From the IMG/VR virus record IMGVR_UViG_3300032236_001613, positions 186,001-250,000 of that record: a stretch of DNA of 64,000 bases; one strand, 5' to 3'. This document shows, piece by piece, positions 9,215-63,929 of the stretch. Below the pieces are notes generated by a model. That model saw only the letters and a list, made by a program, of their open reading frames with translations. It did no database searches and had not been told where the DNA came from. Made by a program: the position numbers and the translations under genes. Positions within the stretch are counted from its first letter, which is position 1, and every line of letters starts with the position of its first letter. The stretch is from a virus.

Positions 9215-9219
9215 AATAT

Positions 9220-9295
9220 GCCATCTTAGCTCAGTTGGTAGAGCAGCAGACTGAAAATCTGCGTGTCCCCGGTTCAATTCCGGGAGATGGTACCA
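9220..9295 (+). tRNA. tRNA-Phe(GAA)
   Basis: Acceptor GCCATCT/AGATGGT, D arm with GG, anticodon loop CTGAAAA (GAA), T arm with loop TTCAATT, encoded CCA. Five bases after tRNA-Asp. Confidence 0.93.
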
Positions 9296-9299
9296 GTTA

Positions 9300-10020
9300 T
9301 TATGCCCATCTCCCGTGATCAAAGCTATTGTCAGGGTTTTTAAATTTTCTTAAAGATGATTCTATTCCGGTTACCGGCCACGATATGTGATTTTTATATA
9401 AATGATATATCAACATGTTTTGTGGAGTAAAACACACTCCTTCGGTTGTATATTGATCAATATAATTAAAAACAGACGAATATATGGACATGACATCGCT
9501 ATTGCCTATAGCAAACTGATCGTTTATCCCTGCTCCTTGTCTTTCGGTATCTGGTGTTATTATCATTGGTGTGTTTATACGGTCAAGGTATTCTTTAACT
9601 TTATTTAAAAATATGTAATTATTTAAGCATAAATCTGGCCTTGCTCTAATCACTAAATCATATTTGCCAAACATAGCTTCGTATTTTTGTCTAATATGAC
9701 CAACACGTTGTACGCCATTAAACATATACCAAGCATGAGAGGCCCATGTATGAGTACTATGAGGTCCGCCTAAAATATATGGTTTAGTTTCATCAAATAT
9801 AGGTTCGGGTACAATATCAAAATGAACTACATAATTATTTTTTGGTAAATTATTAACCAATTTAACATAAAACTCATGTTTGTTATTATTCCAACTAGGA
9901 GGAACCCCTTTATCAATGGAATTGTTAGAATTCCAAACATGTATAAACCAATCTAATTGATCATAGATCAAAATCCTTAGTAAACCTCGGTCGACCTGAT
10001 AATTCAATTGCTACTTTCAT
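9300..10020 (-). pseudogene. Glycosyltransferase-like gene with an N-terminal frameshift
   Basis: The long frame (to 10007, TTG) encodes DWFIHVWN, YDLVIRARPDL and INDQFAIGNSDVM, typical of a family of polysaccharide-biosynthesis glycosyltransferases that begin with an ISGxxR motif. That missing start is present in another frame: the ATG at 10020 gives MKVAIELSGRPRFTKDFDL and then meets TGA near 9961. Joining the two by a +1 shift near 9961-9966 restores the expected N-terminus running into the DQLDWFIHVW region. So the gene is either inactivated, wrongly sequenced, or read through by frameshifting. Lone minus-strand gene within the tRNA cluster. Confidence 0.65.
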
Positions 10021-10045
10021 GCGACTATTTATTGTTAGAGTTTAT

Positions 10046-10122
10046 GGGGCCATAACTCAATAGGCTAGAGTAACTGGCTTTTAACCAGTAAGTTGTGAGT
10101 TCGAGCCTCACTGGCCCTACCA
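10046..10122 (+). tRNA. tRNA-Lys(TTT)
   Basis: Acceptor GGGGCCA/TGGCCCT, anticodon stem CTGG/CCAG with loop CTTTTAA (TTT), T loop TTCGAGC, discriminator A, encoded CCA. Confidence 0.93.
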
Positions 10123-10129
10123 TTTCAAT

Positions 10130-10206
10130 GCCTCCGTAACTCAATGGATCAGAGTGCTTGGCTTCGAACCAAGAAGTTGGGAGTTCGAATCTCTCCGGGG
10201 GCGCCA
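10130..10206 (+). tRNA. tRNA-Arg(TCG)
   Basis: Acceptor GCCTCCG/CGGGGGC, anticodon stem TTGG/CCAA with loop CTTCGAA (TCG), T loop TTCGAAT, discriminator G, encoded CCA. Reads CGA-type codons. Confidence 0.92.
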
Positions 10207-10261
10207 TATTACGTGATAAGTAAACAGCAGACAGTTTACAGAAACACAAAGGAGATTTTTA

Positions 10262-10843
10262 ATGAATAAGTTTATTGTTTCGATTATTGCCGGACTTGCT
10301 TTTGCGAATCTTGCAGTAGCCGCGGATTATGCTGGTGTTGATTATCAAGATAAGCAGAAGGTCGACGTTGCTGAACAACACGATGTATTTGGTGCTTATA
10401 TTGGACATAAGTTTTCTGACACAGGATTCTCTGTTGAAGGACGCTTAGAAAATGAAATTGTGCATGATCCTAGTAAGCATGAAGGGCTCGTTCAGGTAAA
10501 AGGAACTTATAATGTACCTGCAGCAATTCTAGAAGTTTATCCTTATGTCAGCGCCACAGTTGGCTATAAGAGCGAAGCAACTAGTAATTTTGATTTTTAT
10601 GTTTTAGAAACGGGATTAAAGTATACCCAACTACCTAACGTAGAACTACGTTATGGACTACGTCTACGTACTCCGTTTAACGAAAGTTCGGTAGGCGAAG
10701 GCAACCATTACCGTACAGTAGAAAATAGCATCAACGCCGTTTATAAACTAGACAGTCATAATGGCGTTACTTTAAAATATGCACGTGAGCATGGTGATAG
10801 CAATTATCACACTTACGGTGTTGGTCTAGTACACTCCTTCTAA
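10262..10843 (+). CDS. Outer-membrane beta-barrel (porin-like) protein
   Basis: 193 residues with a Sec signal peptide (MNKFIVSIIAGLAFANLAVA, cut before ADY). The mature part is built of alternating polar/hydrophobic strands with Tyr at strand ends and finishes in YGVGLVHSF, the C-terminal Phe signature recognised by the BAM machinery. Size and pattern resemble small KdgM- or OmpW-like barrels, but I cannot name a family. SD AAGGAG. It is followed 4 bp later by the His-rich membrane protein at 10848. A phage gene of this type could block superinfection or change permeability. Confidence 0.7.
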   Translation: MNKFIVSIIAGLAFANLAVAADYAGVDYQDKQKVDVAEQHDVFGAYIGHKFSDTGFSVEGRLENEIVHDPSKHEGLVQVKGTYNVPAAILEVYPYVSATVGYKSEATSNFDFYVLETGLKYTQLPNVELRYGLRLRTPFNESSVGEGNHYRTVENSINAVYKLDSHNGVTLKYAREHGDSNYHTYGVGLVHSF

Positions 10844-10847
10844 TCAT

Positions 10848-11297
10848 ATGGCAATAATTGCAGCCTTATTATGTCTGCTAGGCTGGTTTTTGCCATTAAC
10901 AGATTATCTAACTCCTAAATCAGGAGTAGGTTATTGGATGGGTATAGTAGGAGCGTCCATGATGCTCCTACTTTTAACTTATAGTCTGCGAAAACGTTAT
11001 AAATTCTTAGATTGGTCACCCCCACTTAGTAAGTGGTTTAATGCACACATATTTTTAGGTCTATATGGGCCTTTATTAATCTTATATCATTGCGGCTATC
11101 ATTTAGGTGCTTTTAATAGTAATATGGCTTTATGGTCGATGATTATAGTTGCTATTAGCGGAGTTATAGGTAGATTTTTATATAATCGTCCTCAATTTAA
11201 AAAAGCATTCGCTATTTGGCATGTGGCACATTTGCCTTTTGTTTTTATGTTAGCTGCAGCAGCAGTTATACATATACTTGCAGTAAACATATATTAA
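10848..11297 (+). CDS. Four-helix membrane protein with cytochrome b-like His pairs
   Basis: 149 residues with about four hydrophobic helices (roughly 1-20, 28-46, 66-85 or 94-112, 125-148). His residues lie inside helices at 67, 81, 85, 125, 128 and 142 (HIFLGLYGPLLILYHCGYHLG and WHVAHLPFVFM), the layout of transmembrane heme-b proteins such as the ferric reductase-like and cytochrome b561-like families. No FAD or NADPH domain is attached. No clear Shine-Dalgarno; it starts 4 bp after the porin-like stop, so it is probably coupled. Heme binding is inference. Confidence 0.55.
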   Translation: MAIIAALLCLLGWFLPLTDYLTPKSGVGYWMGIVGASMMLLLLTYSLRKRYKFLDWSPPLSKWFNAHIFLGLYGPLLILYHCGYHLGAFNSNMALWSMIIVAISGVIGRFLYNRPQFKKAFAIWHVAHLPFVFMLAAAAVIHILAVNIY

Positions 11298-11305
11298 AAA
11301 CGTAT

Positions 11306-11381
11306 GGTGGCTATAGTGTAGAGGTTCGCACACTAGGTTGTGGCCCTGGTAGTAAGGGTTCAATTCCCTTTAGTCACCCCA
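11306..11381 (+). tRNA. tRNA-His(GTG)
   Basis: Has the extra G at -1 facing C73, the hallmark of tRNA-His. Acceptor GTGGCTA/TAGTCAC, anticodon loop TTGTGGC (GTG), T loop TTCAATT, encoded CCA. Confidence 0.93.
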
Positions 11382-11447
11382 AATTATTTTTATAATTAGT
11401 CTAGGAATATAGATAATTTTCTCTTATAATTATCTATATAATTTTTC

Positions 11448-11537
11448 GGAAGTGTGGCAGAGTCCGGTTTATTGCAACAGTCTTGAAAACTGTCGAGTTT
11501 AATCGCTCCGTAGGTTCGAATCCTACTACTTCCGCCA
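11448..11537 (+). tRNA. tRNA-Ser(TGA)
   Basis: Class II tRNA: acceptor GGAAGTG/TACTTCC, anticodon arm CAGT/ACTG with loop CTTGAAA (TGA), long variable arm, T arm GTAGG/CCTAC, G73, encoded CCA. Confidence 0.93.
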
Positions 11538-11540
11538 AAT

Positions 11541-11603
11541 TTAGGATGCTTCCAGCAAATAAAAAACTTTTCTTGAAAAAAAGCCAAAACAGCATCCTGT
11601 TTA
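11541..11603 (+). ncRNA. AGGATGC element, copy 1
   Basis: First of three related elements, starting 4 nt after tRNA-Ser. A closing stem AGGATGCT (11543-11550) pairs with AGCATCCT (11591-11598), followed by GTTT. Inside is a shared CAGCAAAT block and a 5-bp hairpin CTTTT/AAAAG with 7-nt loop CTTGAAA (11672 offset not used; hairpin 11567-11583), the same loop as the neighbouring tRNA-Ser anticodon. No T arm or D arm. Function unknown. Confidence 0.5.
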
Positions 11604-11609
11604 ATTTTA

Positions 11610-11704
11610 CCTCGATAGCACAGGTGTGCGGCTAGGTCTTATAAACCTGGGAGAGTTGCCAGATTAGCGACAACGGGAAGGATCGTTACCTTCATCGAGG
11701 ACCA
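11610..11704 (+). tRNA. tRNA-Sec/allo-tRNA-like gene with TAT anticodon
   Basis: 95 nt. Acceptor CCTCGAT/ATCGAGG is perfect, with A73 and encoded CCA. The D arm is a tight hairpin GCAC-AGGT-GTGC (tetraloop), the anticodon stem CTAGGT/ACCTGG has loop CTTATAA (TAT, Ile AUA), the variable region is long with a GTTG/CAAC stem, and T stem GAAGG/CCTTC abuts the acceptor to give a 12-bp stack with a non-canonical loop ATCGTTA. Long D stem, tetraloop and long V arm are features of tRNA-Sec and of allo-tRNAs. Charging specificity is unknown; Ser, Ile and Leu are all conceivable. Confidence 0.6.
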
Positions 11705-11712
11705 AATTTTAG

Positions 11713-11741
11713 TTGACTAATTGGTAAATGCGTGTTAAAGT
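11713..11741 (+). promoter_or_regulatory. Sigma70-type promoter
   Basis: TTGACT, 17 bp, TAAAGT, directed at tRNA-Glu(TTC) and the coiled-coil gene. The -10 lies inside an ATGCGT/ACGCAT inverted repeat. Confidence 0.6.
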
Positions 11742-11795
11742 ATACGCATACGCTAAGAAATTAGCAACGCTCTTTAATAAATGAAAATAGTTTAT

Positions 11796-11871
11796 GGTCC
11801 CATCATCTAGAGGCCTAGGATATTGCCCTTTCACGGCAAGTACACGGGTTCAAATCCCGTTGGGACTACCA
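11796..11871 (+). tRNA. tRNA-Glu(TTC)
   Basis: Acceptor GGTCCCA/TGGGACT, anticodon stem TGCC/GGCA with loop CTTTCAC (TTC), T loop TTCAAAT, encoded CCA. Confidence 0.93.
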
Positions 11872-11908
11872 TACTTTTTAACTAAATATCTAGCTACGGA
11901 GAAATACT

Positions 11909-12364
11909 ATGAGCTTTCTAGACGTTTTCAAGAAAGAAAAAGACAAGCTAGTTGAAGAAGTTACTAAAGTCGAATCTACTGTTGTCGAAGAAGTAAAGAA
12001 AGTAGAAGCAGTGGCTGAACGAGCTGTTGCTGCTACCGAAGCAGTAGTTAAAGAAGTTGTAGTAGATTTTGAAAAGATTTTAACAGAAGCCGAGCAGGCA
12101 GCAGAAAGAACTCTACGCGATGTAGAGTTAGCTCGCCAGTTATACGAAAAAGCACTGGCTAGAGCAAATCTAGCAGCTAATAGAGCTAGAGAAGCTGCTG
12201 AACAAGCAGCAGCAAAAGCCCAAGAAGAAGCTGAAAGAGCCTTGTTGAGAGCTGAACGTGCTGCTAAGTTAGTGATTGGTATTTCAGGATCGGCGCCAGC
12301 TCCGGTTATTGCGCCTCCACCAATCGCTCCTGCTCCACCCCCTACAAGTAATACTACTCAATAA
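11909..12364 (+). CDS. Ala/Glu-rich coiled-coil protein
   Basis: 151 residues, almost entirely predicted helix or coiled coil (residues about 8-125, dense in Ala, Glu, Lys, Arg with heptad spacing), ending in a Pro-rich tail (APAPVIAPPPIAPAPPP). No signal peptide or catalytic motif. SD GGAG. It sits between tRNA-Glu(TTC) and a CAT tRNA and ends 2 bp before the latter, so the tRNA 5' end is cut from its mRNA. Function unknown; a structural or scaffold role is possible. Confidence 0.65.
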   Translation: MSFLDVFKKEKDKLVEEVTKVESTVVEEVKKVEAVAERAVAATEAVVKEVVVDFEKILTEAEQAAERTLRDVELARQLYEKALARANLAANRAREAAEQAAAKAQEEAERALLRAERAAKLVIGISGSAPAPVIAPPPIAPAPPPTSNTTQ

Positions 12365-12366
12365 TT

Positions 12367-12442
12367 AGTAGTGTAGCATAGTGGCTAATGCAGCACCTTC
12401 ATACGGTGTTTACCATCGGTTCGAGTCCGATCACTACTACCA
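12367..12442 (+). tRNA. tRNA(CAT), Met or lysidine-type Ile
   Basis: Acceptor AGTAGTG/CACTACT, anticodon stem GCACC/GGTGT with loop TTCATAC (CAT), T loop TTCGAGT, A73, encoded CCA. A second CAT tRNA lies at 14684. A1-T72 is fully paired, so it is not a typical initiator; elongator Met and Ile2 cannot be separated by eye. Confidence 0.88.
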
Positions 12443-12447
12443 GTTTT

Positions 12448-12560
12448 AGGATACCTACAGCAACATAAATTACTCATGCTAAGAGAGAGGTCGTTGGTTC
12501 AAGTCCAACCTAGTCTTAGGACTAGTAGCTCAGTTGGTAGAGCACTAAAATGTGTATCCT
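12448..12560 (+). ncRNA. AGGATGC element copy 2 containing a circularly permuted tRNA-like sequence
   Basis: Closing stem AGGATAC (12448-12454) pairs with GTATCCT (12554-12560), a compensated variant of copies 1 and 3. Inside, tRNA parts occur in swapped order: an anticodon-like loop CTCATGC, T arm GTTGG-TTCAAGT-CCAAC (12493-12509), acceptor 3' strand CTAGTCT (12510-12516), two bases, then acceptor 5' strand GGACTAG (12519-12525), TA, and D arm GCTC-AGTTGGTA-GAGC (12528-12543). The acceptor halves pair over 7 bp. No CCA and no convincing anticodon stem when the ends are joined. Either a permuted tRNA gene or a rearranged relic. Confidence 0.5.
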
Positions 12561-12570
12561 GTTTTATTCG

Positions 12571-12648
12571 GCACCGGTGGCAGAGTGGCCCAATGCAAGA
12601 GTCTGCAAAACTCTAAAGTCGTCAGTTCGAATCTGACCCGGTGCTCCA
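12571..12648 (+). tRNA. tRNA-Cys(GCA)
   Basis: Acceptor GCACCGG/CCGGTGC, anticodon stem AGAGT/ACTCT with loop CTGCAAA (GCA), T loop TTCGAAT, T73, encoded CCA. Confidence 0.93.
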
Positions 12649-12697
12649 ATATACTTGTATAATAGATAACAAACATATATAATATATGAAATTATAC

Positions 12698-12773
12698 GGC
12701 CTCGTAGCCTAGTGGATCAGGCAACAGCCTTCTAAGCTGTCTTACACAGGTTCGAATCCTGTCGAGGTCGCCA
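12698..12773 (+). tRNA. tRNA-Arg(TCT)
   Basis: Acceptor GGCCTCG/CGAGGTC, anticodon stem CAGC/GCTG with loop CTTCTAA (TCT), T loop TTCGAAT, G73, encoded CCA. Reads AGA/AGG. Confidence 0.93.
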
Positions 12774-12784
12774 AATTAATTAGT

Positions 12785-12813
12785 TTGACATCTTAATAAA
12801 GATAAGTAATAAT
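12785..12813 (+). promoter_or_regulatory. Probable sigma70-type promoter
   Basis: Consensus TTGACA followed by a weak AT-rich -10 (AATAAT at 17 bp, or TAATAA at 16 bp), directed at tRNA-Gly(TCC). Confidence 0.4.
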
Positions 12814-12824
12814 ATATCAACAAC

Positions 12825-12898
12825 GCGGAATTGGCATATGGGTTGTGCTCCAGCCTTCCAAGCTGGCTAAACGAGTTCGAGTCTCGTATTCCGCTCCA
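12825..12898 (+). tRNA. tRNA-Gly(TCC)
   Basis: Acceptor GCGGAAT/ATTCCGC, anticodon stem CCAGC/GCTGG with loop CTTCCAA (TCC), T loop TTCGAGT, T73, encoded CCA. Reads GGA/GGG. Confidence 0.93.
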
Positions 12899-12915
12899 AC
12901 TTTTAAGAGGCTCTA

Positions 12916-13134
12916 ATGAATAATCTCGGTGAATTAAGAGATTACGCTGTTGCTCGAGGATATAAAATCAAAGAGTTTAACGGATATGCACTACATATTG
13001 GGCGTGATACTTATACTATGTTAGCTGGAGAAATTTATCTCAATAAGATTAAAACTCCTACTAAAGAAGTTTTAAAGAAATTTACAGAAAAGTCTGCTGC
13101 AAAAAAAACTGCAGCAACAGCAAAGAAAAAATAG
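12916..13134 (+). CDS. Small Lys/Ala-tailed protein, unknown
   Basis: 72 residues. The N-terminal half (ELRDYAVARGYKIKEFNGYAL) could be a small alpha/beta unit, followed by a Lys/Ala-rich basic tail (KSAAKKTAATAKKK), which suggests nucleic-acid contact but proves nothing. SD AAGAGG. Stop is TAG, 6 bp before tRNA-Leu. Confidence 0.6.
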   Translation: MNNLGELRDYAVARGYKIKEFNGYALHIGRDTYTMLAGEIYLNKIKTPTKEVLKKFTEKSAAKKTAATAKKK

Positions 13135-13140
13135 TTTTGT

Positions 13141-13221
13141 GCCCTAATGGTGAAATTGGTAGACACGCAAGATTTAGGTTCTTGTCTTCGGGTGGGGGTT
13201 CGAGTCCCTCTTAGGGCACCA
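13141..13221 (+). tRNA. tRNA-Leu(TAG)
   Basis: Class II: acceptor GCCCTAA/TTAGGGC, anticodon stem CAAGA/TCTTG with loop TTTAGGT (TAG), variable arm, T loop TTCGAGT, A73, encoded CCA. The only clear tRNA-Leu in the window. Confidence 0.93.
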
Positions 13222-13225
13222 ATAG

Positions 13226-13291
13226 TTTTAGGATGCCTACAGCAAATTTAAAAATCAAAATGTCAATTTGAAAACAAATGCGCATCCTGTT
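13226..13291 (+). ncRNA. AGGATGC element, copy 3
   Basis: Starts 5-8 nt after tRNA-Leu. TTTTAGGATGC pairs by its AGGATGC with GCATCCT, followed by GTTT as in copies 1 and 2. It shares CTACAGCAA with copy 2 and holds a perfect 5-bp hairpin TCAAA/TTTGA with a 7-nt loop ATGTCAA. Architecture and length match copy 1 closely (stem, 17-18 nt, hairpin, 8-10 nt, stem). Function unknown. Confidence 0.5.
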
Positions 13292-13298
13292 TAAATAT

Positions 13299-13372
13299 GC
13301 CGGTGTAGTATAATGATAGTGCGACGGTCTCCAAAACCGTTAGTGGGAGTTTGATTCTCTCCACCGGTGCCA
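13299..13372 (+). tRNA. tRNA-Trp(CCA)
   Basis: Acceptor GCCGGTG/CACCGGT, anticodon stem ACGGT/ACCGT with loop CTCCAAA (CCA), encoded 3' CCA. D loop AATGATA has A19 instead of G19, and T loop TTTGATT has T56 instead of C56, a compensated pair also seen in tRNA-Ala at 14602. Confidence 0.92.
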
Positions 13373-13384
13373 AATCGAGGACTT

Positions 13385-13699
13385 ATGACAAAAAAATTTA
13401 CATTTAATGATTTACAACCTAGAGTTGAAATGCTAATCGATGCTCTAGAAAATCGTGGCGCTTGTGCTAGCGGCTTACCATATGCTCCGGGCGTTAAAGC
13501 AGTTGCTGAAAACTATAAGTCAATGTTAGATTTTATAAGAAATAAAACAATTAACAAAGACGATCTCATCAACAGTTTATCAACAGCTAAAGCACTTGTA
13601 TTAGAACGAGCAGGTGGTAATCAAATTGATAGAATACGTAAAATTCTAGATGCTCTTGACTCCTATATGATGAGAGAGTATAATAAACAGAACAGTTGA
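13385..13699 (+). CDS. Small helical protein, unknown
   Basis: 104 residues from the ATG at 13385 (GAGGA Shine-Dalgarno 5 bp upstream); an upstream in-frame start at 13367 would lie inside tRNA-Trp. Predicted largely helical (LQPRVEMLIDALENRG, AVAENYKSMLDFIRN, IRKILDALDSYMMREY). No known motif. Its TGA stop overlaps the tRNA 5' remnant at 13696, so gene and tRNA fragment share bases. Confidence 0.6.
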   Translation: MTKKFTFNDLQPRVEMLIDALENRGACASGLPYAPGVKAVAENYKSMLDFIRNKTINKDDLINSLSTAKALVLERAGGNQIDRIRKILDALDSYMMREYNKQNS

Positions 13700-13721
13700 C
13701 CCTTCGTCTAGCGGTAGGACA
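13696..13721 (+). pseudogene. Orphan tRNA 5' half next to the HNH gene
   Basis: TGACCCTTCGTCTAGCGGTA plus GGACA is a tRNA 5' part (acceptor strand plus D arm) of Gln/Glu type with no 3' half. It aligns with the start of the intact tRNA-Gln at 14290 (CTTC-TCTA-CGG-AGGA pattern). The HNH gene begins 15 bp later, so endonuclease insertion probably split or duplicated a tRNA-Gln gene here. Confidence 0.5.
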
Positions 13722-13723
13722 AA

Positions 13724-13731
13724 TATAAATA
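13724..13731 (+). promoter_or_regulatory. T4-type late promoter for the HNH gene
   Basis: Exact TATAAATA ending 4 bp before the HNH start codon. Transcription would begin at or inside the ATG, so translation would be leaderless or use a later start. Confidence 0.5.
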
Positions 13732-13735
13732 CTAT

Positions 13736-14278
13736 ATGCTTAGTAAAAATATTAGTTCAGAGACAATCGAAAAATTAATTGATTCAGGTTTAAAAACCTC
13801 AGAAATTGCATCTAAGCTCGGTATCTCTACTGCAACAGTTTCTTATTGGAAAAAGAAACTCGGAAAAGAACTTAGTAATATCAAACATGATTGGAAAAAA
13901 ATTCAAGAAGCCCACAACAATGGGTCTACTTATTCTCAATTATACAAAGAGTTTGGTGTTACTAAAAGATCATTACAGAAAGCTAGAGATCGAGGAGATT
14001 TCAAGGTTAGACAGCGTAAAAAATTGTCAAAAGATGACGCTAAAATTAGAAAAAGAATTATATGCAGAGAAGCGTGGATGCGGTATTATAGTAGAAAAAA
14101 ATATCAAACTCCGGCTGATGAAGATATTAAAAAATTACAAGAATTTTATGCTAATTGCCCGGTTGGTTATGAAGTAGATCACATCATACCTATAAGTAAA
14201 GGCGGATTACATACATTGTCGAATCTTCAATACTTAACTATTAAAGAGAATAGACAAAAAGGTAATAAGATATTATAA
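13736..14278 (+). CDS. HNH endonuclease with N-terminal HTH
   Basis: 180 residues. Residues about 8-40 form a helix-turn-helix (LKTSEIASKLGISTATVSYW) with a second HTH-like repeat (STYSQLYKEFGVTKRSLQ); the C-terminus is an HNH nuclease (CPVGYEVDHIIPISKGG, then NLQYLT and N). This is the layout of phage homing-type endonucleases. It sits between a tRNA 5' remnant and an intact tRNA-Gln, consistent with homing into a tRNA locus. No Shine-Dalgarno; TATAAATA directly upstream. Confidence 0.85.
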   Translation: MLSKNISSETIEKLIDSGLKTSEIASKLGISTATVSYWKKKLGKELSNIKHDWKKIQEAHNNGSTYSQLYKEFGVTKRSLQKARDRGDFKVRQRKKLSKDDAKIRKRIICREAWMRYYSRKKYQTPADEDIKKLQEFYANCPVGYEVDHIIPISKGGLHTLSNLQYLTIKENRQKGNKIL

Positions 14279-14289
14279 TTTAACACTAT

Positions 14290-14363
14290 TGGGGAATCTT
14301 CTAACGGCAGGAAGGCGGACTTTGACTCCGCTAATCTAGGTTCGAATCCTAGTTCCCCAGCCA
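14290..14363 (+). tRNA. tRNA-Gln(TTG)
   Basis: Acceptor TGGGGAA/TTCCCCA, anticodon stem GCGGA/TCCGC with loop CTTTGAC (TTG), T loop TTCGAAT, G73, encoded CCA. Likely relative of the truncated 5' half at 13696. Confidence 0.92.
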
Positions 14364-14369
14364 ATTTTT

Positions 14370-14443
14370 GCCCGATTAGCTCAAAAGTAGAGCGCACGAC
14401 TGATAATCGTAAGACAAAGGAGCGTTACCTTTATTGGGCACCA
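14370..14443 (+). tRNA. tRNA-Ile(GAT) lacking canonical D/T-loop contacts
   Basis: Acceptor GCCCGAT/ATTGGGC, D stem GCTC/GAGC, anticodon loop CTGATAA (GAT), T stem AAAGG/CCTTT, A73, encoded CCA. D loop AAAAGTA has no GG and T loop AGCGTTA has no TTC, so the usual 18-55 and 19-56 tertiary pairs are both missing. The T loop resembles ATCGTTA of the gene at 11610. Confidence 0.85.
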
Positions 14444-14459
14444 TATAAATAAAGACAAT

Positions 14460-14535
14460 TGGAGTGTAGCTCAGCGGCAGTAGCGTTCGCCTGTTAAGCG
14501 AATGGTCGTAGGTTCGATCCCTACCACTCCAGCCA
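14460..14535 (+). tRNA. tRNA-Asn(GTT)
   Basis: Acceptor TGGAGTG/CACTCCA, anticodon stem TTCGC/GCGAA with loop CTGTTAA (GTT), T arm GTAGG/CCTAC, G73, encoded CCA. Confidence 0.93.
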
Positions 14536-14543
14536 AATTTTAG

Positions 14544-14572
14544 TTGACCATTTTCGAAATGTTCAATATAAT
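14544..14572 (+). promoter_or_regulatory. Sigma70-type promoter
   Basis: TTGACC, 17 bp, TATAAT, in the gap between tRNA-Asn and tRNA-Ala. Directs the Ala-Met-Ser tRNA group and probably the small gene at 14877. Confidence 0.7.
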
Positions 14573-14601
14573 ATATTCAAGTTAGTAAATAGTTTCGCGT
14601 T

Positions 14602-14675
14602 GGGGGATTGATGTAGTGATAGCCTGGGACCCTTGCACGGTCTTCGCGAGAGTTTGATTCTCTCATCCTCCACCA
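14602..14675 (+). tRNA. tRNA-Ala(TGC)
   Basis: Acceptor GGGGGAT/ATCCTCC, anticodon stem GGACC/GGTCT with loop CTTGCAC (TGC), A73, encoded CCA. D loop AGTGATA (A19) and T loop TTTGATT (T56) repeat the compensated change in tRNA-Trp. D stem has one mismatch. Confidence 0.9.
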
Positions 14676-14683
14676 AAGTTTGA

Positions 14684-14757
14684 TGCAGGGTAGTAGAACG
14701 GAACTACGCTAGGCTCATAACCTAGAGAACTTGGTTCGACTCCAAGCTCTGCTTCCA
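14684..14757 (+). tRNA. tRNA-Met(CAT), possibly initiator
   Basis: Acceptor TGCAGGG/CTCTGCT with an unpaired T-T at 1-72, anticodon stem CTAGG/CCTAG with loop CTCATAA (CAT), T loop TTCGACT, T73, encoded CCA. The 1-72 mismatch and CTCATAA loop are initiator-like, but the three G-C pairs expected next to the loop are only two, so elongator Met or Ile2 remains possible. Confidence 0.88.
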
Positions 14758-14766
14758 GTTTGAAAC

Positions 14767-14854
14767 GGATGGTTGCCTGAGCGGTTAAAGGAGCGGGTTG
14801 CTAACCCGTCGCGGTGAAAACTGCGCATAGGTTCGAATCCTATACCATCCGCCA
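14767..14854 (+). tRNA. tRNA-Ser(GCT)
   Basis: Class II: acceptor GGATGGT/ACCATCC, anticodon loop TTGCTAA (GCT), long variable arm, T arm ATAGG/CCTAT with loop TTCGAAT, G73, encoded CCA. Reads AGC/AGU. Confidence 0.93.
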
Positions 14855-14876
14855 ATTTGTTATATAGAGGAATAAA

Positions 14877-15092
14877 ATGCAAGAGTATAAGCCGACCGGT
14901 AGTTATCGTATGTCACGTCAAGCCAAGCAGATGTTATCTAGGATCCAGGATCCTATTGAGAGAACTGAAGCAAAACGTTTAATTATTCAAAGTGAGTTGC
15001 ATCTTCAGTTGACTCCTAAGCGTAATCCGCTTGATAAGGATCGCACAACTAAAAATAGTCGCAATAATAAAGACGACTCGTTAGAAGAGTAA
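14877..15092 (+). CDS. Small charged protein, unknown
   Basis: 71 residues with SD GAGGA. Basic and polar throughout (YRMSRQAKQMLSRIQD, then a Lys/Asn/Asp-rich tail). One amphipathic helix is likely in the middle. No family recognised. Lies between tRNA-Ser(GCT) and tRNA-Thr(TGT), expressed with the tRNA precursor. Confidence 0.6.
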   Translation: MQEYKPTGSYRMSRQAKQMLSRIQDPIERTEAKRLIIQSELHLQLTPKRNPLDKDRTTKNSRNNKDDSLEE

Positions 15093-15102
15093 ATAAAGTT
15101 AG

Positions 15103-15178
15103 GCCTTCTAAGCATTGCTGGCGATGCACCGGATTTGTAACCCGGGGATAGTCTGTTCGATTCAGACAGAAGGCACCA
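15103..15178 (+). tRNA. tRNA-Thr(TGT)
   Basis: Acceptor GCCTTCT/AGAAGGC, anticodon arm CCGG/CCGG with loop TTTGTAA (TGT; the pair nearest the loop is A-C), D arm GCAT/ATGC, T loop TTCGATT, A73, encoded CCA. Confidence 0.9.
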
Positions 15179-15182
15179 GTTT

Positions 15183-15280
15183 AGACGGACCTGTAACCAT
15201 ATTCCGTCTCCGCCGGAGCGAAAACAGGATGGGCTGCTGCCGCGGGGTTTGACTGTTTCCTGACACACAAATAACAGTCA
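15183..15280 (+). other. Structured intergenic segment between tRNA-Thr and tRNA-Val
   Basis: No ORF. Two perfect inverted repeats: AGACGGA/TCCGTCT (15183-15209) and TGACTGTT/AACAGTCA (15250-15280), with a GC-rich core between them that stands out from the AT-rich surroundings. Could be a stable RNA or a decayed tRNA; no acceptor or T arm found. Confidence 0.35.
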
Positions 15281-15289
15281 TGTGTTTAT

Positions 15290-15364
15290 GCCCGGTTAGC
15301 TCAGGGGTAGAGCGTCTGGTTTACATCCAGAATGTCGGCGGTTCGAAACCGTCACCGGGTACCA
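15290..15364 (+). tRNA. tRNA-Val(TAC)
   Basis: Acceptor GCCCGGT/ACCGGGT, anticodon stem TCTGG/CCAGA with loop TTTACAT (TAC), T loop TTCGAAA, A73, encoded CCA. Confidence 0.93.
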
Positions 15365-15378
15365 GTTTAGTAAGGTCA

Positions 15379-15454
15379 CGGGGTGTAGCTCAGTCTGGTT
15401 TAGAGCGTCCGCTTTGGGAGCGGAAGGTCCAAAGTTCGAATCTTTGTACCCCGA
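15379..15454 (+). tRNA. tRNA-Pro(TGG), CCA not encoded
   Basis: Acceptor CGGGGTG/TACCCCG, anticodon stem CCGC/GCGG with loop CTTTGGGA region (TGG), T loop TTCGAAT. Followed by AAAA rather than CCA, so unlike its neighbours it needs host CCA addition. Confidence 0.9.
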
Positions 15455-15469
15455 AAAATTAAATTTACA

Positions 15470-15901
15470 ATGAAAATAAAAATTACAGATCAAGATCCTG
15501 ACCGTCATAATCACATAGAATATCCTATGGAGATTGGAGGTCAGGCTTTTGCACCTGTAAAAATCGAAAAAGAAAAAGATCTTATGCTAGCTGTCGCACA
15601 ACTTAGCGCACAGCAAGAATATGATCGCATCATGGAATCTGTTTCTATATTACAACGGCAAGCACAAGCACTACAAAGAAGAATGCATTTAACAGAGATG
15701 GTACATGCTGCTAAGTTTAGTTTTGTGCCAATTCCGGGTAAAAGTTATTGGTTAGTCGAAGATACTAAAAAATCTCAAATTATTTTAACCCCAATGGGTC
15801 CATCAGATTGGAGTTGTTTGGCGCCTGAAGAATATAAGTATGTTGCATATGTACGTTGTTTAGGCGATCAAACCTGGCAAGAAATTATAGAGCCCGATTA
15901 G
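15470..15901 (+). CDS. DUF2452-like protein
   Basis: 143 residues. The C-terminal block FVPIPGKSYWLVEDTKKSQIIL...MGPSDWSCL...YKYVAYVRCLGDQTWQEI matches the pattern of DUF2452 proteins; the middle is a coiled helix rich in Gln. Function of the family is unknown. No strong Shine-Dalgarno. Its last three codons plus TAG overlap the first ten bases of tRNA-Thr(AGT), so RNase P cleavage of the transcript removes the stop codon from the mRNA. Confidence 0.6.
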   Translation: MKIKITDQDPDRHNHIEYPMEIGGQAFAPVKIEKEKDLMLAVAQLSAQQEYDRIMESVSILQRQAQALQRRMHLTEMVHAAKFSFVPIPGKSYWLVEDTKKSQIILTPMGPSDWSCLAPEEYKYVAYVRCLGDQTWQEIIEPD

Positions 15902-15968
15902 CTCAGTTGGTAGTAGCAACTGATTAGTAATCAGTAGGTCGGCGGTTCGAATCCGTCATCGGGCACCA
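15892..15968 (+). tRNA. tRNA-Thr(AGT)
   Basis: Acceptor GCCCGAT/ATCGGGC, anticodon stem ACTGA/TCAGT with loop TTAGTAA (AGT), T loop TTCGAAT, A73, encoded CCA. An A34 anticodon is rare in bacteria outside tRNA-Arg(ACG). The 5' end lies inside the upstream coding sequence. Confidence 0.88.
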
Positions 15969-16004
15969 TATAAGAAAGATATATACATTTAAGGAGACCA
16001 TATA

Positions 16005-16250
16005 ATGAGTAAAGGAAGTAGAACTAGACCATTGTCGGTCACTAGAAAAACGTTCGATAGTAATTGGGATCGAATTTTTGGAAAAAAGGAATATGATATG
16101 CAAATTAAAGTAAAAGAAGGATCCTTAGGCAGTTGTCCTTGCGGACGCAGTCCGATTAATCGCTGTGTTGGATGGCACAATCTCAACGAAGAGCAGTTAG
16201 CCAAAGCAAAGGCCGATTATGCAGCTAAAGAAGCAAAGAAAACTGCATGA
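16005..16250 (+). CDS. Small conserved phage protein with Cys pair
   Basis: 81 residues, SD AAGGAG. The N-terminal half (MSKGSRTRPLSVTRKTFDSNWDRIF split over two blocks) resembles a short protein common in T4-like marine phages; the C-terminal half has CPCGRSPINRCVGWH, a SEC-C-like Cys/His zinc-binding pattern. Stop overlaps the next start (ATGA). Function unknown. Confidence 0.65.
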   Translation: MSKGSRTRPLSVTRKTFDSNWDRIFGKKEYDMQIKVKEGSLGSCPCGRSPINRCVGWHNLNEEQLAKAKADYAAKEAKKTA

Positions 16251-16651
16251 TAGAAAAAGTTGTAGTTAACGGCACGTTTGATATACTGCACTTAGGGCAT
16301 ATTAGACTTTTAGAATATGCTCGTGAGCTTGGATGGTATTTACTTGTCTTAATTGATTCAGATCGTAGAGTACAAGAACTTAAAGGCCCTACACGGCCGG
16401 TTAACAATCAAGAAGAAAGAGCCGAAATGCTTCGTGCTATTAAGTATGTTGACGAAGTGCAAATTTTTGACAGTGATGATGAATTAAGAAACCTTATTAA
16501 AGAATATCAGCCGGATTTTATGGTTAAAGGTAGTGATTACAGAAATCGTCCTATTATAGGTAGCGAATATTGTAAGGAAATTAAGTTTTATGAGTATATG
16601 GAAGGCTATTCGACCACAAAAAAAATATCAAGTATTATTGATAGGCGATAG
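16247..16651 (+). CDS. hldE: Heptose-1-phosphate adenylyltransferase-like (HldE C-terminal type)
   Basis: 134 residues. VVNGTFDILHLGHIRLLEYAR contains the HxGH nucleotidyltransferase motif, followed by DSDRRVQELKGPTRPVNNQEER and VKGSDYRNRPIIGSEY, matching the RfaE2/HldE C-terminal domain that makes ADP-heptose from heptose-1-phosphate and ATP. In most bacteria it is fused to the kinase; here it is a separate gene placed before the kinase. Coupled by ATGA to the upstream gene. The exact sugar is inferred. Confidence 0.8.
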   Translation: MIEKVVVNGTFDILHLGHIRLLEYARELGWYLLVLIDSDRRVQELKGPTRPVNNQEERAEMLRAIKYVDEVQIFDSDDELRNLIKEYQPDFMVKGSDYRNRPIIGSEYCKEIKFYEYMEGYSTTKKISSIIDRR

Positions 16652-17384
16652 TTGTACTGACGTTTATCAATACGGAACTGTGGATAGAATTAGTCCAGAA
16701 GCACCTGTACCTATTTTTAAACATAGTCATACAGAAACTAGGCCAGGAATGGCAGCAAACGTACAGTTGAATCTTGAATCGTTTGGAATCGAAGTTACAG
16801 CATTGCTAGGGCCTGGATCAGTAAAGACTAGGCTAGTTGATCTTCGTAGTCGGCAACATGTTCTTAGAATCGATGATGATGCTAACGCCACTCCTATGTT
16901 ATTCGATTCTAAACTTGATCTAACACACTATCATGCGGTAGTGTTTAGTGATTACAATAAAGGATGGGTTAGTTACGAATTAGTTGAAGTAGTACGACAA
17001 AAGTTCGGTGGACCAATTTTTATTGATACTAAAAAACAAGATCTAGCAAAATTTTGGGACTGTTATGTTAAAGTTAACGAAACTGAGTACAATAACAGAT
17101 GGTCTATCAATAATAAATTAATTGTTACATTAGGTAATCGAGGTGCAGTTTATAAAGAACTTGGTCGCAAAGAAGTAGAATTTCCACCAGACACAGTCGA
17201 GGTAGTAGATGTATGTGGTGCTGGAGACACATTTTTAGCAGCCATAGTTGCAGAATACTTAAATAGTAGAGATATTAATAGTGCAATAAAGTTTGCTAAC
17301 CATGCTAGTGCTATAAGTGTACAGCATAGCGGAGTTTATGCATTAACTCGAGAAGATATTAAGAAGATTAAAAAGCGGGTATGA
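16590..17384 (+). CDS. hldE: PfkB-family heptose kinase-like (HldE N-terminal type)
   Basis: 264 residues of the ribokinase fold: VLLIGDSCTDVYQYGTVDRISPEAPVPIF is the HldE-type N-terminus and DVCGAGDTFLAA is the PfkB signature with the catalytic Asp. It overlaps the adenylyltransferase gene by 62 bp in another frame; the next in-frame ATG is past the substrate site, so 16590 is the only sensible start. Shorter than the E. coli kinase domain (about 318). Together the two genes rebuild a split HldE that would feed LPS heptose synthesis. Confidence 0.8.
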   Translation: MSIWKAIRPQKKYQVLLIGDSCTDVYQYGTVDRISPEAPVPIFKHSHTETRPGMAANVQLNLESFGIEVTALLGPGSVKTRLVDLRSRQHVLRIDDDANATPMLFDSKLDLTHYHAVVFSDYNKGWVSYELVEVVRQKFGGPIFIDTKKQDLAKFWDCYVKVNETEYNNRWSINNKLIVTLGNRGAVYKELGRKEVEFPPDTVEVVDVCGAGDTFLAAIVAEYLNSRDINSAIKFANHASAISVQHSGVYALTREDIKKIKKRV

Positions 17385-17405
17385 TGTAATCGAACCTTTG
17401 ACTTA

Positions 17406-17413
17406 TATAAATA
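17406..17413 (+). promoter_or_regulatory. T4-type late promoter for the second HNH gene
   Basis: Exact TATAAATA inside the palindrome CTTATATAAATAAG, 19 bp before the ATG of the HNH gene at 17432, with an AGGAG ribosome-binding site between. Confidence 0.55.
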
Positions 17414-17431
17414 AGTATATAGGAGTACGAT

Positions 17432-17914
17432 ATGAAATATTGCCCGAAGTGTAATAATGAACATAATAAACCTGGAATGTTTTGCTCAAGATCATGTGCA
17501 AATAGTCGTGTTTGGTCAGAAGAGACCAATTTAAAAAGATCAATAACATCAAAGGGTAATTCCCCGTGGAATAAAGGTATATCCACCGGAATTAACGAAG
17601 AAAGAAATAAAGTTATACGATTAGTTCGATTGGAAAAAAATAGAAATAAATTTTTAAACGGGTTGATAACCGAAAGATCGGCAATAAGGAAACATCTTAC
17701 AAGAGAACATGGTTATTTCTGTTCTATTTGTTCTATTTCAGAATGGCAAGGACAAAAAATTACATTACAAGTAGATCATATAGATGGAAACGCAGGAAAC
17801 AATTTACCTACAAATCTAAGATTAATTTGTCCGAATTGTCATAGTCAAACTAAAACATTTGGAGCAAGAAATAAAGGTTCAGGAAGAGCATCTAGAGGTC
17901 TTCCGTTAAGTTAA
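17432..17914 (+). CDS. HNH endonuclease with Cys-rich zinc finger
   Basis: 160 residues. N-terminal CPKCNNEHNKPGMFCSRSC finger, a basic middle, then the HNH core CSICSISEWQGQKITLQVDHIDG...NLRLICPNCHSQT with four Cys for structural zinc and the VDH-N-H catalytic pattern. Typical free-standing homing endonuclease. Placed directly before tRNA-Gly(GCC), so again next to a tRNA. SD AGGAG. Confidence 0.88.
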   Translation: MKYCPKCNNEHNKPGMFCSRSCANSRVWSEETNLKRSITSKGNSPWNKGISTGINEERNKVIRLVRLEKNRNKFLNGLITERSAIRKHLTREHGYFCSICSISEWQGQKITLQVDHIDGNAGNNLPTNLRLICPNCHSQTKTFGARNKGSGRASRGLPLS

Positions 17915-17924
17915 ATAATATATC

Positions 17925-17999
17925 GCGGGATTAATTCAGTGGTAGAATGCAACTTTGCCAAAGTTGATGTCACCGGTTCGAGCCCGGTATCCCGCTCCA
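17925..17999 (+). tRNA. tRNA-Gly(GCC)
   Basis: Acceptor GCGGGAT/ATCCCGC, anticodon stem CAACT/AGTTG with loop TTGCCAA (GCC), T loop TTCGAGC, T73, encoded CCA. Confidence 0.93.
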
Positions 18000-60510: not shown

Positions 60511-60786
60511 ATGAGTAAAGTATTCGGCGACCCAGAAAAACAAAAGCTTAAGCAAATTGTTTCTGAGGGTGTTACTGTTAAACAGGAAATTCAAGTGCTT
60601 ACAGAAGGTCTTAATGATACTATTAAGTCTATCGCAGAAGAGCTTGATATTTCGGCTGGCGAAATTAAGCAGGCAATCAATATTGCCCTCAAAGGAAATT
60701 GGGATCAAGTTTGGAAGAAGTTCGATACTATCGAAACTATTCTTGATATTACTGGTCATGCAGTCCGAAAGGAGGACGAGGTATGA
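60511..60786 (+). CDS. DsbA-like DNA-binding protein (tentative)
   Basis: 91 residues. Helical, with KVFGDPEKQKLKQIVSEGV, LTEGLNDTIKSIAEELDISAGEIKQAINIALKGNWDQVW, a layout like the small dsDNA-binding protein DsbA of T4-like phages, which helps late transcription. Similarity is by pattern only. AAGGAG ribosome-binding site; ATGA overlap with speD. Confidence 0.5.
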   Translation: MSKVFGDPEKQKLKQIVSEGVTVKQEIQVLTEGLNDTIKSIAEELDISAGEIKQAINIALKGNWDQVWKKFDTIETILDITGHAVRKEDEV

Positions 60787-61142
60787 GTGATTATTGGGGA
60801 TATCATCTAATGCTTGATTGTTCGGGGTGTAATGATAATATTAAAGACCGTGAACAAATTTATCAATTCGCTAAGGAAATGGTAAAACGCATCGATATGA
60901 TTGCGCATGGCGAGCCTATTATCGAATACATGCTGCCTGGAGATCCTAAGGAAGGGTACAGTTTAATGCAGTTGATTCAAACTAGCAATATTTGTGCACA
61001 CTTTGTTAATCCTGACAATACAGCTTATATTGACATTTTTAGTTGCAAGGAATACGACATCGAGACTGCCAAGGCCGTAGTTGCAGAGTTTTTCGCTCCT
61101 ACTAAGGTTCGTGTTAATTTTATTACACGACACGCTAATTAA
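60783..61142 (+). CDS. speD: S-adenosylmethionine decarboxylase-like (SpeD)
   Basis: 119 residues: WGYHLMLDCSGCND N-terminus and SLMQLIQTSNICAHFVNPDNTAYIDIFSCKEYD match the AdoMet decarboxylase core, where Ser would become the pyruvoyl group, Cys aids catalysis and the TAYIDIFSC block is diagnostic. It would feed spermidine synthesis; speD-like genes occur in other T4-like marine phages. Placed between a DsbA-like protein and the polymerase. Confidence 0.8.
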   Translation: MSDYWGYHLMLDCSGCNDNIKDREQIYQFAKEMVKRIDMIAHGEPIIEYMLPGDPKEGYSLMQLIQTSNICAHFVNPDNTAYIDIFSCKEYDIETAKAVVAEFFAPTKVRVNFITRHAN

Positions 61143-61165
61143 ATAAATATTATTAGAACATGGTT

Positions 61166-61219
61166 TGGCCAGCCATAAATGGCCATTTAGACGGTCTGTG
61201 AGCCATAAATCACAAGGAG
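61166..61219 (+). promoter_or_regulatory. Tandem hairpins with identical loops: candidate gp43-type operator
   Basis: Hairpin 1: TGGCCA (61166-61171), loop GCCATAAA, TGGCCA (61180-61185). Hairpin 2: TGTGA (61197-61201), the same loop GCCATAAA, TCACA (61210-61214), immediately followed by AAGGAG (61214-61219), 8 bp before the polymerase ATG. The stems differ but the 8-nt loops are identical. T4 and RB69 gp43 repress their own translation by binding a hairpin with a 5-bp or so stem and 8-nt loop overlapping the ribosome-binding site. Confidence 0.7.
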
Positions 61220-61226
61220 AAAAAAT

Positions 61227-63929
61227 ATGAGTTACGTCGATTCCATGTGGGATCGCGAAAACGATATCGTAAATGTCGTTGAACGTGATCCTGTAAAAGG
61301 AAGAATATTCCAACAATATCCAGCAAAGTATTTGTTTTATTACCCAGATGTTAAGGGTAAGCATAATAGTATATTTGGCACACCTTTAAGTAAGGTTACA
61401 TCAAGAAGTTATAAAGAACACATGAAAGAGCAAAGGATCCATAGTGGTCGTAAGCTCTTTGAAAGCGATATTAATCCAGTATTTCGATGTCTGGAAGAAA
61501 ATTATTTAGGAAAAGATGCTCCTAAATTAAACGTAGCATTTTTCGATATTGAGGTTGATTTTGATCCCGAAAGAGGTTATGCAACCCCTGATGATGCATT
61601 CATGCCAATCACTGCAATTGCAGTACATTTACAGTGGTTAGATACTTTGATATGTCTAGCTGTTCCTCCTAAGACATTAACTATGGAACAAGCTCTCGAA
61701 CAGGTAAAAGATTTTCCTAATACCATTTTGTTCCAAAATGAGTACGAGCTACTTGATACATTTTTAACTCTCATCGAAGATGCAGATGTATTGAGCGGGT
61801 GGAATTCCGAAGGATTCGATATTCCATATACTGTCAATCGAGTAATTAAAGCTCTTAGTAAAGAAGATACTAGAAGGTTTTGTCTTTGGAATCAATTTCC
61901 AAAAAGACGAGAGTACGAAAAGTATGGAAAAACTTCAGTAACTTACGATATTATAGGTCGTGTTCATCTCGACAGTCTGGCTTTATATAGAAAGTATACA
62001 TATGAAGAACGCCATAGCTGGAAGCTTGATTCAGTTGCTGAAGATGAACTTGGTGAGCGTAAAACACAGTACGAAGGTACACTTGACCAATTGTATAACA
62101 ATGATTTTAAAACATTTATTGAGTACAATAGACAAGACTGCGCAATCTTAGAAAAACTCGATAAAAAATTAAAGTTTATTGACTTAGCTAACACAATTGC
62201 ACATGAAAATACTGTGCTACTTCAAACTACAATGGGCGCCGTTGCTGTTACCGAACAAGCTATTATTAATGAGGCACATAGTTTAGGGTTGATTGTTCCT
62301 AGTCGTACTAAACAAGATGACAAGGACATTACCGACGACGATGATGGTCCATCAGATACACAAGCAGCAGGTGCTTATGTAGCATATCCTAAAAAAGGAT
62401 TACATGATTGGATTGGATCAATGGACATTAACAGTCTGTATCCATCTGTTATTCGTGCTTTAAATATGGGTCCCGAGACAATTATCGGTCAGCTAAGACA
62501 AGAATATACTAAGGCAGAAATTTCTGCTAAAATGGCAAAAGGATCTAGTTTTGCTGCTTCTTGGGAAGGCAAGTTTGGAAGTAATGAGTTCGAACTTGTT
62601 ATGTCTAAAGACATTGCACAAGACATAACTGTCGATTGGGAAGATGGCAAAAGCGATGTACTAACCGGTGCACAGATTTATTCTTTAATCTACGAAAATA
62701 ATAATCCTTGGCTGTTAAGTGCAAATGGTACTATTTTTACTGTAGAGAAGGAAGGAATTATTCCTGGCTTGCTAGCACGTTGGTATAAAGAGCGTAAAGA
62801 ACTTCAAAAGAAATTAAAAGCAGCAATTGAAGCAGGAAATAAAGTCGAAGAAGAGTACTGGGATAAAAGACAGCTAGTTAAGAAAATTAACTTAAACAGT
62901 CTTTACGGTGCAATTCTTAATCCTGGTTGCAGATTTTTTGATAATCGAATTGGGCAGTCAACAACATTAACTGGTCGTCGAATTGCTAGACATATGGCAT
63001 CAAAAATTAATGAAATTATTACCGGCGAATATAATCATGTCGGTAAAGCTATCATTTACGGCGATACTGACTCTGCATACTTTAGTGCTTACAGTACGTT
63101 AAGAAATGAAATCAATAAAGGAGTTATTCCTTGGGATAAGGATACTGTAATTCAACTTTATAATACTGTAGCTGAAGAAGTTAACAACACATTTCCTCAA
63201 TTCATGTTAGATGACTTTCATTGCCCTAAGAAGCGTGGTGAAGTTATTAAAGCAGGACGAGAAATCGTTGCTATTAAAGGACTGTTTATTACTAAAAAAC
63301 GATACGCTGTTCTTTATTATGATAAAGATGGTAAACGTCAAGACCTTGGTGGAAAGCCTGGTAAAATTAAAGCCATGGGCCTAGATCTTAAAAGAAGCGA
63401 CACACCAGAATTCATGCAAGAGTTCCTTAGCGAAATTCTAAATAAAGTACTCAACGGTGCAGGTGAGGATGAGATTTTAGAAAGGATTTCTGTCTTTAGA
63501 ACTGAATTTAAATCACGTCCAGGTTGGGAAAAAGGCAGCCCTAAAAGAGCAAATAACATTACCGATTATCAATCGAGAGAAGAAAAAGCCGGTAAAATTA
63601 ATATGCCAGGACATGTTAGAGCAAGTATTAATTGGAATACATTACGTAGAATGAACGATGACAAATATTCATTACAAATCGTTGATGGTATGAAAGTTAT
63701 TGTTTGCAAACTCATTGATAATCCAATGGGGTTTACTAGCGTGGCGTATCCAACGGACGAACAAAGACTACCAAAATGGTTTCAAGAGCTACCTTTCGCT
63801 CATTCAGAGATGGAAGGTGTCATTATTAACAATAAGCTAGAAAATCTTATCGGAGTTCTTGAATGGGATTTGAACTCAACTAAACAGGACTCAACATTTG
63901 GAAGTTTATTTTCGTTTGGATCAGAATAA
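61227..63929 (+). CDS. 43: Family B DNA polymerase, T4 gp43-type
   Basis: 900 residues, like T4 gp43 (898). Exonuclease motifs FFDIEV (Asp107, Glu109), GWNSEGFDIPY (Asn193, Asp198) and EYNRQDCAIL (Asp304); polymerase motif A SMDINSLYPS (Asp400), motif B KKINLNSLYG and motif C YGDTDS (611-616). All catalytic acids are present, so it should be an active proofreading replicase. Preceded by the tandem hairpins and a perfect AAGGAG. Stop followed by an early promoter for the next gene. Confidence 0.97.
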   Translation: MSYVDSMWDRENDIVNVVERDPVKGRIFQQYPAKYLFYYPDVKGKHNSIFGTPLSKVTSRSYKEHMKEQRIHSGRKLFESDINPVFRCLEENYLGKDAPKLNVAFFDIEVDFDPERGYATPDDAFMPITAIAVHLQWLDTLICLAVPPKTLTMEQALEQVKDFPNTILFQNEYELLDTFLTLIEDADVLSGWNSEGFDIPYTVNRVIKALSKEDTRRFCLWNQFPKRREYEKYGKTSVTYDIIGRVHLDSLALYRKYTYEERHSWKLDSVAEDELGERKTQYEGTLDQLYNNDFKTFIEYNRQDCAILEKLDKKLKFIDLANTIAHENTVLLQTTMGAVAVTEQAIINEAHSLGLIVPSRTKQDDKDITDDDDGPSDTQAAGAYVAYPKKGLHDWIGSMDINSLYPSVIRALNMGPETIIGQLRQEYTKAEISAKMAKGSSFAASWEGKFGSNEFELVMSKDIAQDITVDWEDGKSDVLTGAQIYSLIYENNNPWLLSANGTIFTVEKEGIIPGLLARWYKERKELQKKLKAAIEAGNKVEEEYWDKRQLVKKINLNSLYGAILNPGCRFFDNRIGQSTTLTGRRIARHMASKINEIITGEYNHVGKAIIYGDTDSAYFSAYSTLRNEINKGVIPWDKDTVIQLYNTVAEEVNNTFPQFMLDDFHCPKKRGEVIKAGREIVAIKGLFITKKRYAVLYYDKDGKRQDLGGKPGKIKAMGLDLKRSDTPEFMQEFLSEILNKVLNGAGEDEILERISVFRTEFKSRPGWEKGSPKRANNITDYQSREEKAGKINMPGHVRASINWNTLRRMNDDKYSLQIVDGMKVIVCKLIDNPMGFTSVAYPTDEQRLPKWFQELPFAHSEMEGVIINNKLENLIGVLEWDLNSTKQDSTFGSLFSFGSE

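Follow-up and report, generated by a model that had tools for sequence, protein, structure and literature searches.

The leader of the DNA polymerase gene in the window, which here means the whole stretch of 64,000 nucleotides analysed (part of a 328 kb virus record), contains two short hairpins that are, on comparison with relatives, well supported as H-type pseudoknots arranged in tandem, the crossing loop being A-rich. Comparison of leaders likewise establishes their linkage to the polymerase and their position at its ribosome-binding site. With moderate confidence, we regard the pair as an operator that acts in cis on translation of the polymerase transcript and is most likely autogenous. 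The predicted parts of the leader and the gene that follows are:

61144-61149, + strand: TAAATA box, similar to T4 late promoters, with the first GGT 18 nt downstream; putative promoter
61162-61164, + strand: pseudoknot 1, 5′ strand of S1 (GGU), complement of 61172-61174; covariation in relatives
61165, + strand: pseudoknot 1, L1, a single U
61166-61171, + strand: pseudoknot 1, 5′ strand of S2 (UGGCCA); sequence, fold and S2 covariation
61172-61174, + strand: pseudoknot 1, 3′ strand of S1 (GCC), equal to loop bases 1-3; covariation
61175-61179, + strand: pseudoknot 1, crossing loop L3 (AUAAA); both A of NNAAR invariant in relatives, AA having belonged to the search filter
61180-61185, + strand: pseudoknot 1, 3′ strand of S2 (UGGCCA); sequence and fold
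61193-61195, + strand: pseudoknot 2, 5′ strand of S1 (GGU), complement of 61202-61204; covariation
61196, + strand: pseudoknot 2, L1, a C
61197-61201, + strand: pseudoknot 2, 5′ strand of S2 (UGUGA); sequence, fold and covariation
61202-61204, + strand: pseudoknot 2, 3′ strand of S1 (GCC); covariation
61205-61209, + strand: pseudoknot 2, crossing loop L3 (AUAAA)
61210-61214, + strand: pseudoknot 2, 3′ strand of S2 (UCACA), immediately adjoining the Shine-Dalgarno sequence
61215-61219, + strand: Shine-Dalgarno sequence AGGAG
61227-63929, + strand: family B DNA polymerase, T4/RB69 gp43-like, 900 aa (Pfam DNA_pol_B and DNA_pol_B_exo1)

Read as plain hairpins, the first is composed of TGGCCA (61166-61171), the loop GCCATAAA (61172-61179) and TGGCCA (61180-61185), and the second, 11 nt further on, of TGTGA (61197-61201), the same loop GCCATAAA (61202-61209) and TCACA (61210-61214), running into AAGGAG (61214-61219) ahead of the polymerase ATG at 61227. 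This pair with identical 8-nt loops had been described in an earlier sequence-only reading and is confirmed here at 61166-61214, as is the gp43-like character of the gene, which holds Pfam DNA_pol_B domains and has RB69 gp43 entries (e.g. 1clq, 1ig9) as the closest solved structures. The feature overlooked at that stage was the GGT in front of each hairpin. The gene located 5′ of the polymerase encodes S-adenosylmethionine decarboxylase (60783-61142), a direct upstream neighbour found in the same arrangement in few relatives, and 26 tRNA genes are clustered on the + strand of the window at 8127-17996.

Chance is no explanation for the hairpin pair. Both hairpins are present in the minimum-energy fold of the strand, but the 111-nt stretch is just mildly more stable than its shuffles (z = -1.6), so folding energy by itself is unconvincing, and hairpin 2 alone is weak (-4.0 kcal/mol). 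Stems of at least 5 bp around 8-nt loops are found 610 times on the + strand of the 64 kb, while neighbouring stems with identical loops form exactly one pair, against a mean of 0.0 in 60 Markov-simulated windows. The fuller motif GGY-N5-8-stem-GCCNNAAR, with a stem of at least 4 bp, occurs in the window at these two places only (0.09 expected per simulated strand), and GCCATAAA is absent from the rest of the window, where about 3 occurrences would be expected by chance.

Relatives were collected from IMG/VR as polymerase loci, using three protein scans and a separate, protein-independent DNA pattern of the two loops. The 356 loci with a polymerase N-terminus gave 229 distinct 100-nt leaders including the window's own (228 others), and a hairpin filter (stem of at least 4 bp, 8-nt loop starting with RCY, AA at loop positions 6-7) returned 332 hairpins, S1 pairing not being a criterion. 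Nevertheless, RGY complementary to loop bases 1-3 lies 5-9 nt upstream of the loop, typically 6-8, in 331 of the 332, the sole exception (L152) being a spurious hit, and GGY at offsets 5-8 is found in 323/332, against a background rate of 15%. The S1 combinations present in relatives are GGU/GCC, GGC/GCC, GGU/ACC and AGU/GCU, while AGU with GCC and GGC with ACC were never seen among the 332 hairpins. The polymerase tree requires at least three separate two-sided changes to AGU/GCU, of which two affect copy 1 and one affects copy 2; an AGT/GCT call in L104 was excluded from the event count as a false match. Because the GGY and loop bases 1-3 change together with pairing kept, the hairpins are best understood as pseudoknots. 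Moreover, three leaders (L021, L066 and L069) have AGU/GCU in copy 1 and still GGU/GCC in copy 2, which shows that the partner of each GGY is the loop of the same copy and rules out pairing between the copies.

In an alignment of 73 sequences (A1), picked so as to take in rare variants, 98.8% of cells are paired, and the covariation score reaches 0.656, compared to at most 0.142 with slid partners. S2 stems covary freely among relatives; since S2 pairs in this alignment had been selected for, the reverse test is the one that matters. Among motifs found by S1 and loop alone, S2 has at least 4 bp in 331 of 366, with 19% expected by chance when 3′ flanks are dealt among sequences, and most of the short-S2 cases trace back to a misplaced pattern hit, a one-base bulge in the stem, or a loop longer by one base. 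The resulting geometry (S1 of 3 bp, L1 of 0-3 nt, S2 of 4-7 bp, L3 of 5-6 nt and no linker between S2 and the 3′ strand of S1) fits an H-type pseudoknot. A fourth S1 base pair has no general support among relatives, and an S1 of just 3 bp with position 2 invariant was counted against the preferred reading.

The loop consensus among relatives is RCYNNAAN, with C throughout at base 2 and AA at bases 6-7; these positions belonged to the search filter, and their constancy is considered real because few leaders at 66% identity or above fail the filter. Of 161 copy-1 loops, 160 have A at base 4, where all four nucleotides occur in copy 2, and base 5 follows the same trend less strictly, leaving a conserved AU in the loop of copy 1 and two almost free bases in copy 2. 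In addition, the GGY of copy 2 is followed by AUU in 109 of 171 cases. Judged by these differences at bases 4-5 and after the GGY, copies 1 and 2 are not equivalent, and loop identity is peculiar to the window and a few others: the two loops are identical in 16 of 153 tandem relatives and different in 137. A linker of 2-9 nt (mostly 4-6) separates the copies, and in most leaders the second S2 extends up to or into the Shine-Dalgarno sequence. The sequence-only reading had expected covarying stems around a constant loop in an alignment of leaders, of which the freely covarying stems were found and a loop constant beyond the paired GCC and the AA was not. It had also ascribed the matching loops to a loop-reading protein, whereas bases 1-3 appear constant because they are paired with the upstream GGY, and its proposal of a doubled T4/RB69 operator, a plain hairpin with a protein-read loop, gives way to pseudoknots on the same covariation.

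In regard to distribution, leaders were binned by best-segment polymerase identity. The tandem pair is present in 168 of the 173 leaders with at least 66% identity, which supports the earlier reading in so far as the RNA element at the ribosome-binding site of the polymerase is doubled, and shows that it is conserved. The five others comprise a closing mismatch (L040), a leader with Ns (L304), PA5oct (L083), which is in this bin only through short-segment identity, and two loci (L058 and L320) in which the tandem pair is present one small gene upstream of the polymerase. The intervening ORF of L058 (1816-2004) is Cys-rich, has about 40 codons and overlaps the polymerase ATG with its end, and the one of L320 (1550-2167, minus strand) encodes 205 aa and looks, by eye, like a 2-oxoglutarate-dependent hydroxylase/oxygenase. 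Such arrangements indicate that the element heads the polymerase operon even with an inserted gene; as the pair there precedes another gene, control would be exerted at the level of the operon, which was counted against the preferred reading. Most leaders in the 58-66% bin are without a pseudoknot, and some have one at the ribosome-binding site, with another hairpin replacing copy 1. In a clade at 60-65%, this replacement is a conserved hairpin, GAGTCG-stem-loop-stem-CATGAATCA, with one pseudoknot downstream of it, at the Shine-Dalgarno sequence. Its stems vary (GCTC/GAGC, GCCC/GGGC, GTTC/GAAC, GTTGG/CCAAC), and it is located in the last 100 nt before the polymerase in L132, L133, L143, L144, L150, L152, L160, L165, L167, L168, L097 and L151.

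The linkage of the pseudoknot pair to the polymerase is also well supported by the DNA-pattern scan of IMG/VR, a fair test because it was run independently of any protein query: 108 of its 118 loci lie directly before a polymerase, the other ten being L258, with a cut-off polymerase, L320, and eight stemless chance matches. The genes upstream of the element in 151 tandem loci form 17 groups with no similarity detected between them, and the element travels with the polymerase, since the motif stays while unrelated upstream genes change. A covariance model gave no credible second site in contig G000 and 10 other large tandem contigs, and its weak hits elsewhere in phage genomes (E > 0.04) have no motif stem at the hit. 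The motif is absent from the cultured jumbo phages Phosso, Atu_ph07, 121Q, GAP32, RaK2, XbC2 and PA5oct and from six more distant T4-like leaders; its absence from the nearest cultured jumbo phages (43-50% identity) was counted against the preferred reading. A tight pattern run on 84,980 bacterial and archaeal genomes returned two chance hits only (L392 and L393), without stems or polymerase, and occurrence in host genomes was rejected.

Of 165 tandem relatives, 100 have a TAAATA box no more than 40 nt upstream of the first GGY, compared to 11% expected in shuffled sequence. With the box mostly at -17 or -18, transcription may begin shortly ahead of pseudoknot 1. In the window, ATAAATA boxes number 16 on the + strand and 5 on the - strand, and TATAAATA boxes 6 and 2, a bias such as T4-like late promoters would show; the distance of the box before the polymerase (61140-61149) to the first GGY is fixed in relatives.

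A translational operator is the best reading of these observations because the structure lies at the ribosome-binding site, is found on one transcript only and contains constant unpaired As. In each pseudoknot, the 5′ GGY pairs with loop bases 1-3 to form S1, stacked without a linker on the free-sequence S2 of 4-7 bp, with the short L1 crossing S2 and the A-rich L3 (NNAAR) crossing S1. Stabilisation of pseudoknot 2 would then block ribosome entry, as its 3′ strand abuts or includes the Shine-Dalgarno sequence. The trans-acting factor would most likely be the polymerase itself, in autogenous repression as in T4, recognising the pseudoknot shape and the constant AA and not the loop sequence, and we infer a cooperative arrangement in which the upstream copy would raise affinity or occupancy. 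Autogenous control is the simplest proposal because T4 and RB69 gp43 act in this way and the site was not found at any other gene.

The gp43 operator is a textbook example of a polymerase that reads its own mRNA, and it was reportedly the target of the first SELEX experiment. Like the gene 43 operator of T4 and RB69, the element described here is located in the leader of a gp43-family gene, has a short stem and lies near or over the ribosome-binding site, and it shares with T4 the 8-nt loop and UAA within it (AAUAACUC, as read in the T4 leader). Unlike the single T4 hairpin, it consists of two elements, each with a covarying extra helix S1, and its loop differs (GCCAUAAA here, RCYNNAAN in relatives), the UAA core alone being common; furthermore, T4 has the RegA gene upstream of gene 43, where none was found here. 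Autoregulation by T4 gp43 is known, and the RB49 gp43 loop contains UAAA (PMC3014915). However, the known gp43 operator is a plain hairpin without pseudoknot evidence, and autoregulation is lacking in some of the gp43 proteins related to T4 (PMC3014915), both of which count against an autogenous pseudoknot. In fold, the closer parallel is the gene 32 operator of T4, T2 and RB69, an H-type pseudoknot with coaxially stacked stems in a phage mRNA leader that serves autogenous translational control (PMC3014915, PMC535899). There, a single pseudoknot lies 67 nt upstream, and gp32 binds cooperatively to an AU-rich tract behind it, whereas here two pseudoknots precede the polymerase, the second touching the Shine-Dalgarno sequence. 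The element thus resembles the gene 32 operator in fold and the gene 43 operator in gene, departing from both in a defining feature. A review from 2010 reported no resolved gp43-RNA complex and no pseudoknot at gene 43, and considered the gene 32 pseudoknot perhaps the sole viral one in translational autoregulation (PMC3014915); we found no description of a tandem pseudoknot before a polymerase gene in Rfam or in openly licensed papers.

Alternatively, the same tandem operator could be bound by another phage or host protein, such as a phage single-strand-binding protein (cf. T4 gp32) or an unknown regulator. We give this a minor share of the probability, since gp32 binds the known phage pseudoknot operator and gp32-like proteins are encoded by four relatives (G001, G002, G006 and G007), yet the motif is found at the polymerase only and at none of their gp32-like genes. 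Operators of gp32 also need an AU-rich unstructured tract, and none was seen between pseudoknot 2 and the AUG in the window leader. A search of eight large contigs of the group did not reveal RegA, while the positive controls T4 and Astolliot were detected.

Riboswitches include small H-type pseudoknots with A-rich loops as well as tandem arrangements; preQ1-I, for example, is such a pseudoknot, its third loop being A-rich, and sometimes sequesters the ribosome-binding site. A tandem metabolite riboswitch, e.g. for a deoxynucleotide, adjusting polymerase synthesis would be consistent with that likeness, but we consider it improbable. In contrast to preQ1-I, S2 joins the 3′ strand of S1 without a linker, leaving no pocket-sized loop, and the motif is confined to a phage polymerase gene, with just the two stemless hits of the tight pattern among bacterial and archaeal genomes. 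Rfam covariance models gave no cis-regulatory match at the gathering score in the window and 15 relatives, and a known Rfam family was therefore rejected. The best sub-threshold hit, at 61146-61229, was freshwater-2 (14.9 bits, cut-off 49.9), an RNA likewise ending in AAGGAGAAAACAAAUG.

It is similarly doubtful that the structure is passive, setting a low or timed translation rate or protecting the 5′ end of the transcript without any ligand. The weakness of hairpin 2, which adjoins the Shine-Dalgarno sequence, and the late-promoter-like box 17-18 nt before the first GGY, which may place the pseudoknots near the mRNA 5′ end, speak for it, while the constant unpaired AA in both copies and the conserved AU in copy 1 exceed the apparent needs of a passive fold. 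Finally, recognition by gp43 of the 8-nt loop sequence of two plain hairpins, on the T4/RB69 pattern, which would account for the real hairpins and loops and the correct gp43 family, is rejected as highly improbable on the covariation of GGY with loop bases 1-3, the differing loops of most relatives and the almost free bases 4-5 of copy 2.

As a long shot, the tandem pseudoknots could represent a new RNA class that senses the replication state, either through a nucleotide as a deoxynucleotide riboswitch or through cooperative recognition of the fold by the replicative polymerase, tying polymerase synthesis to replication in giant phages. With a translational operator as the preferred reading, the more than 300 natural covarying pseudoknots before one polymerase family provide a ready alignment for studying how a polymerase or another factor may recognise RNA shape, and they would represent a compact RNA control element in a large group of uncultivated jumbo phages.
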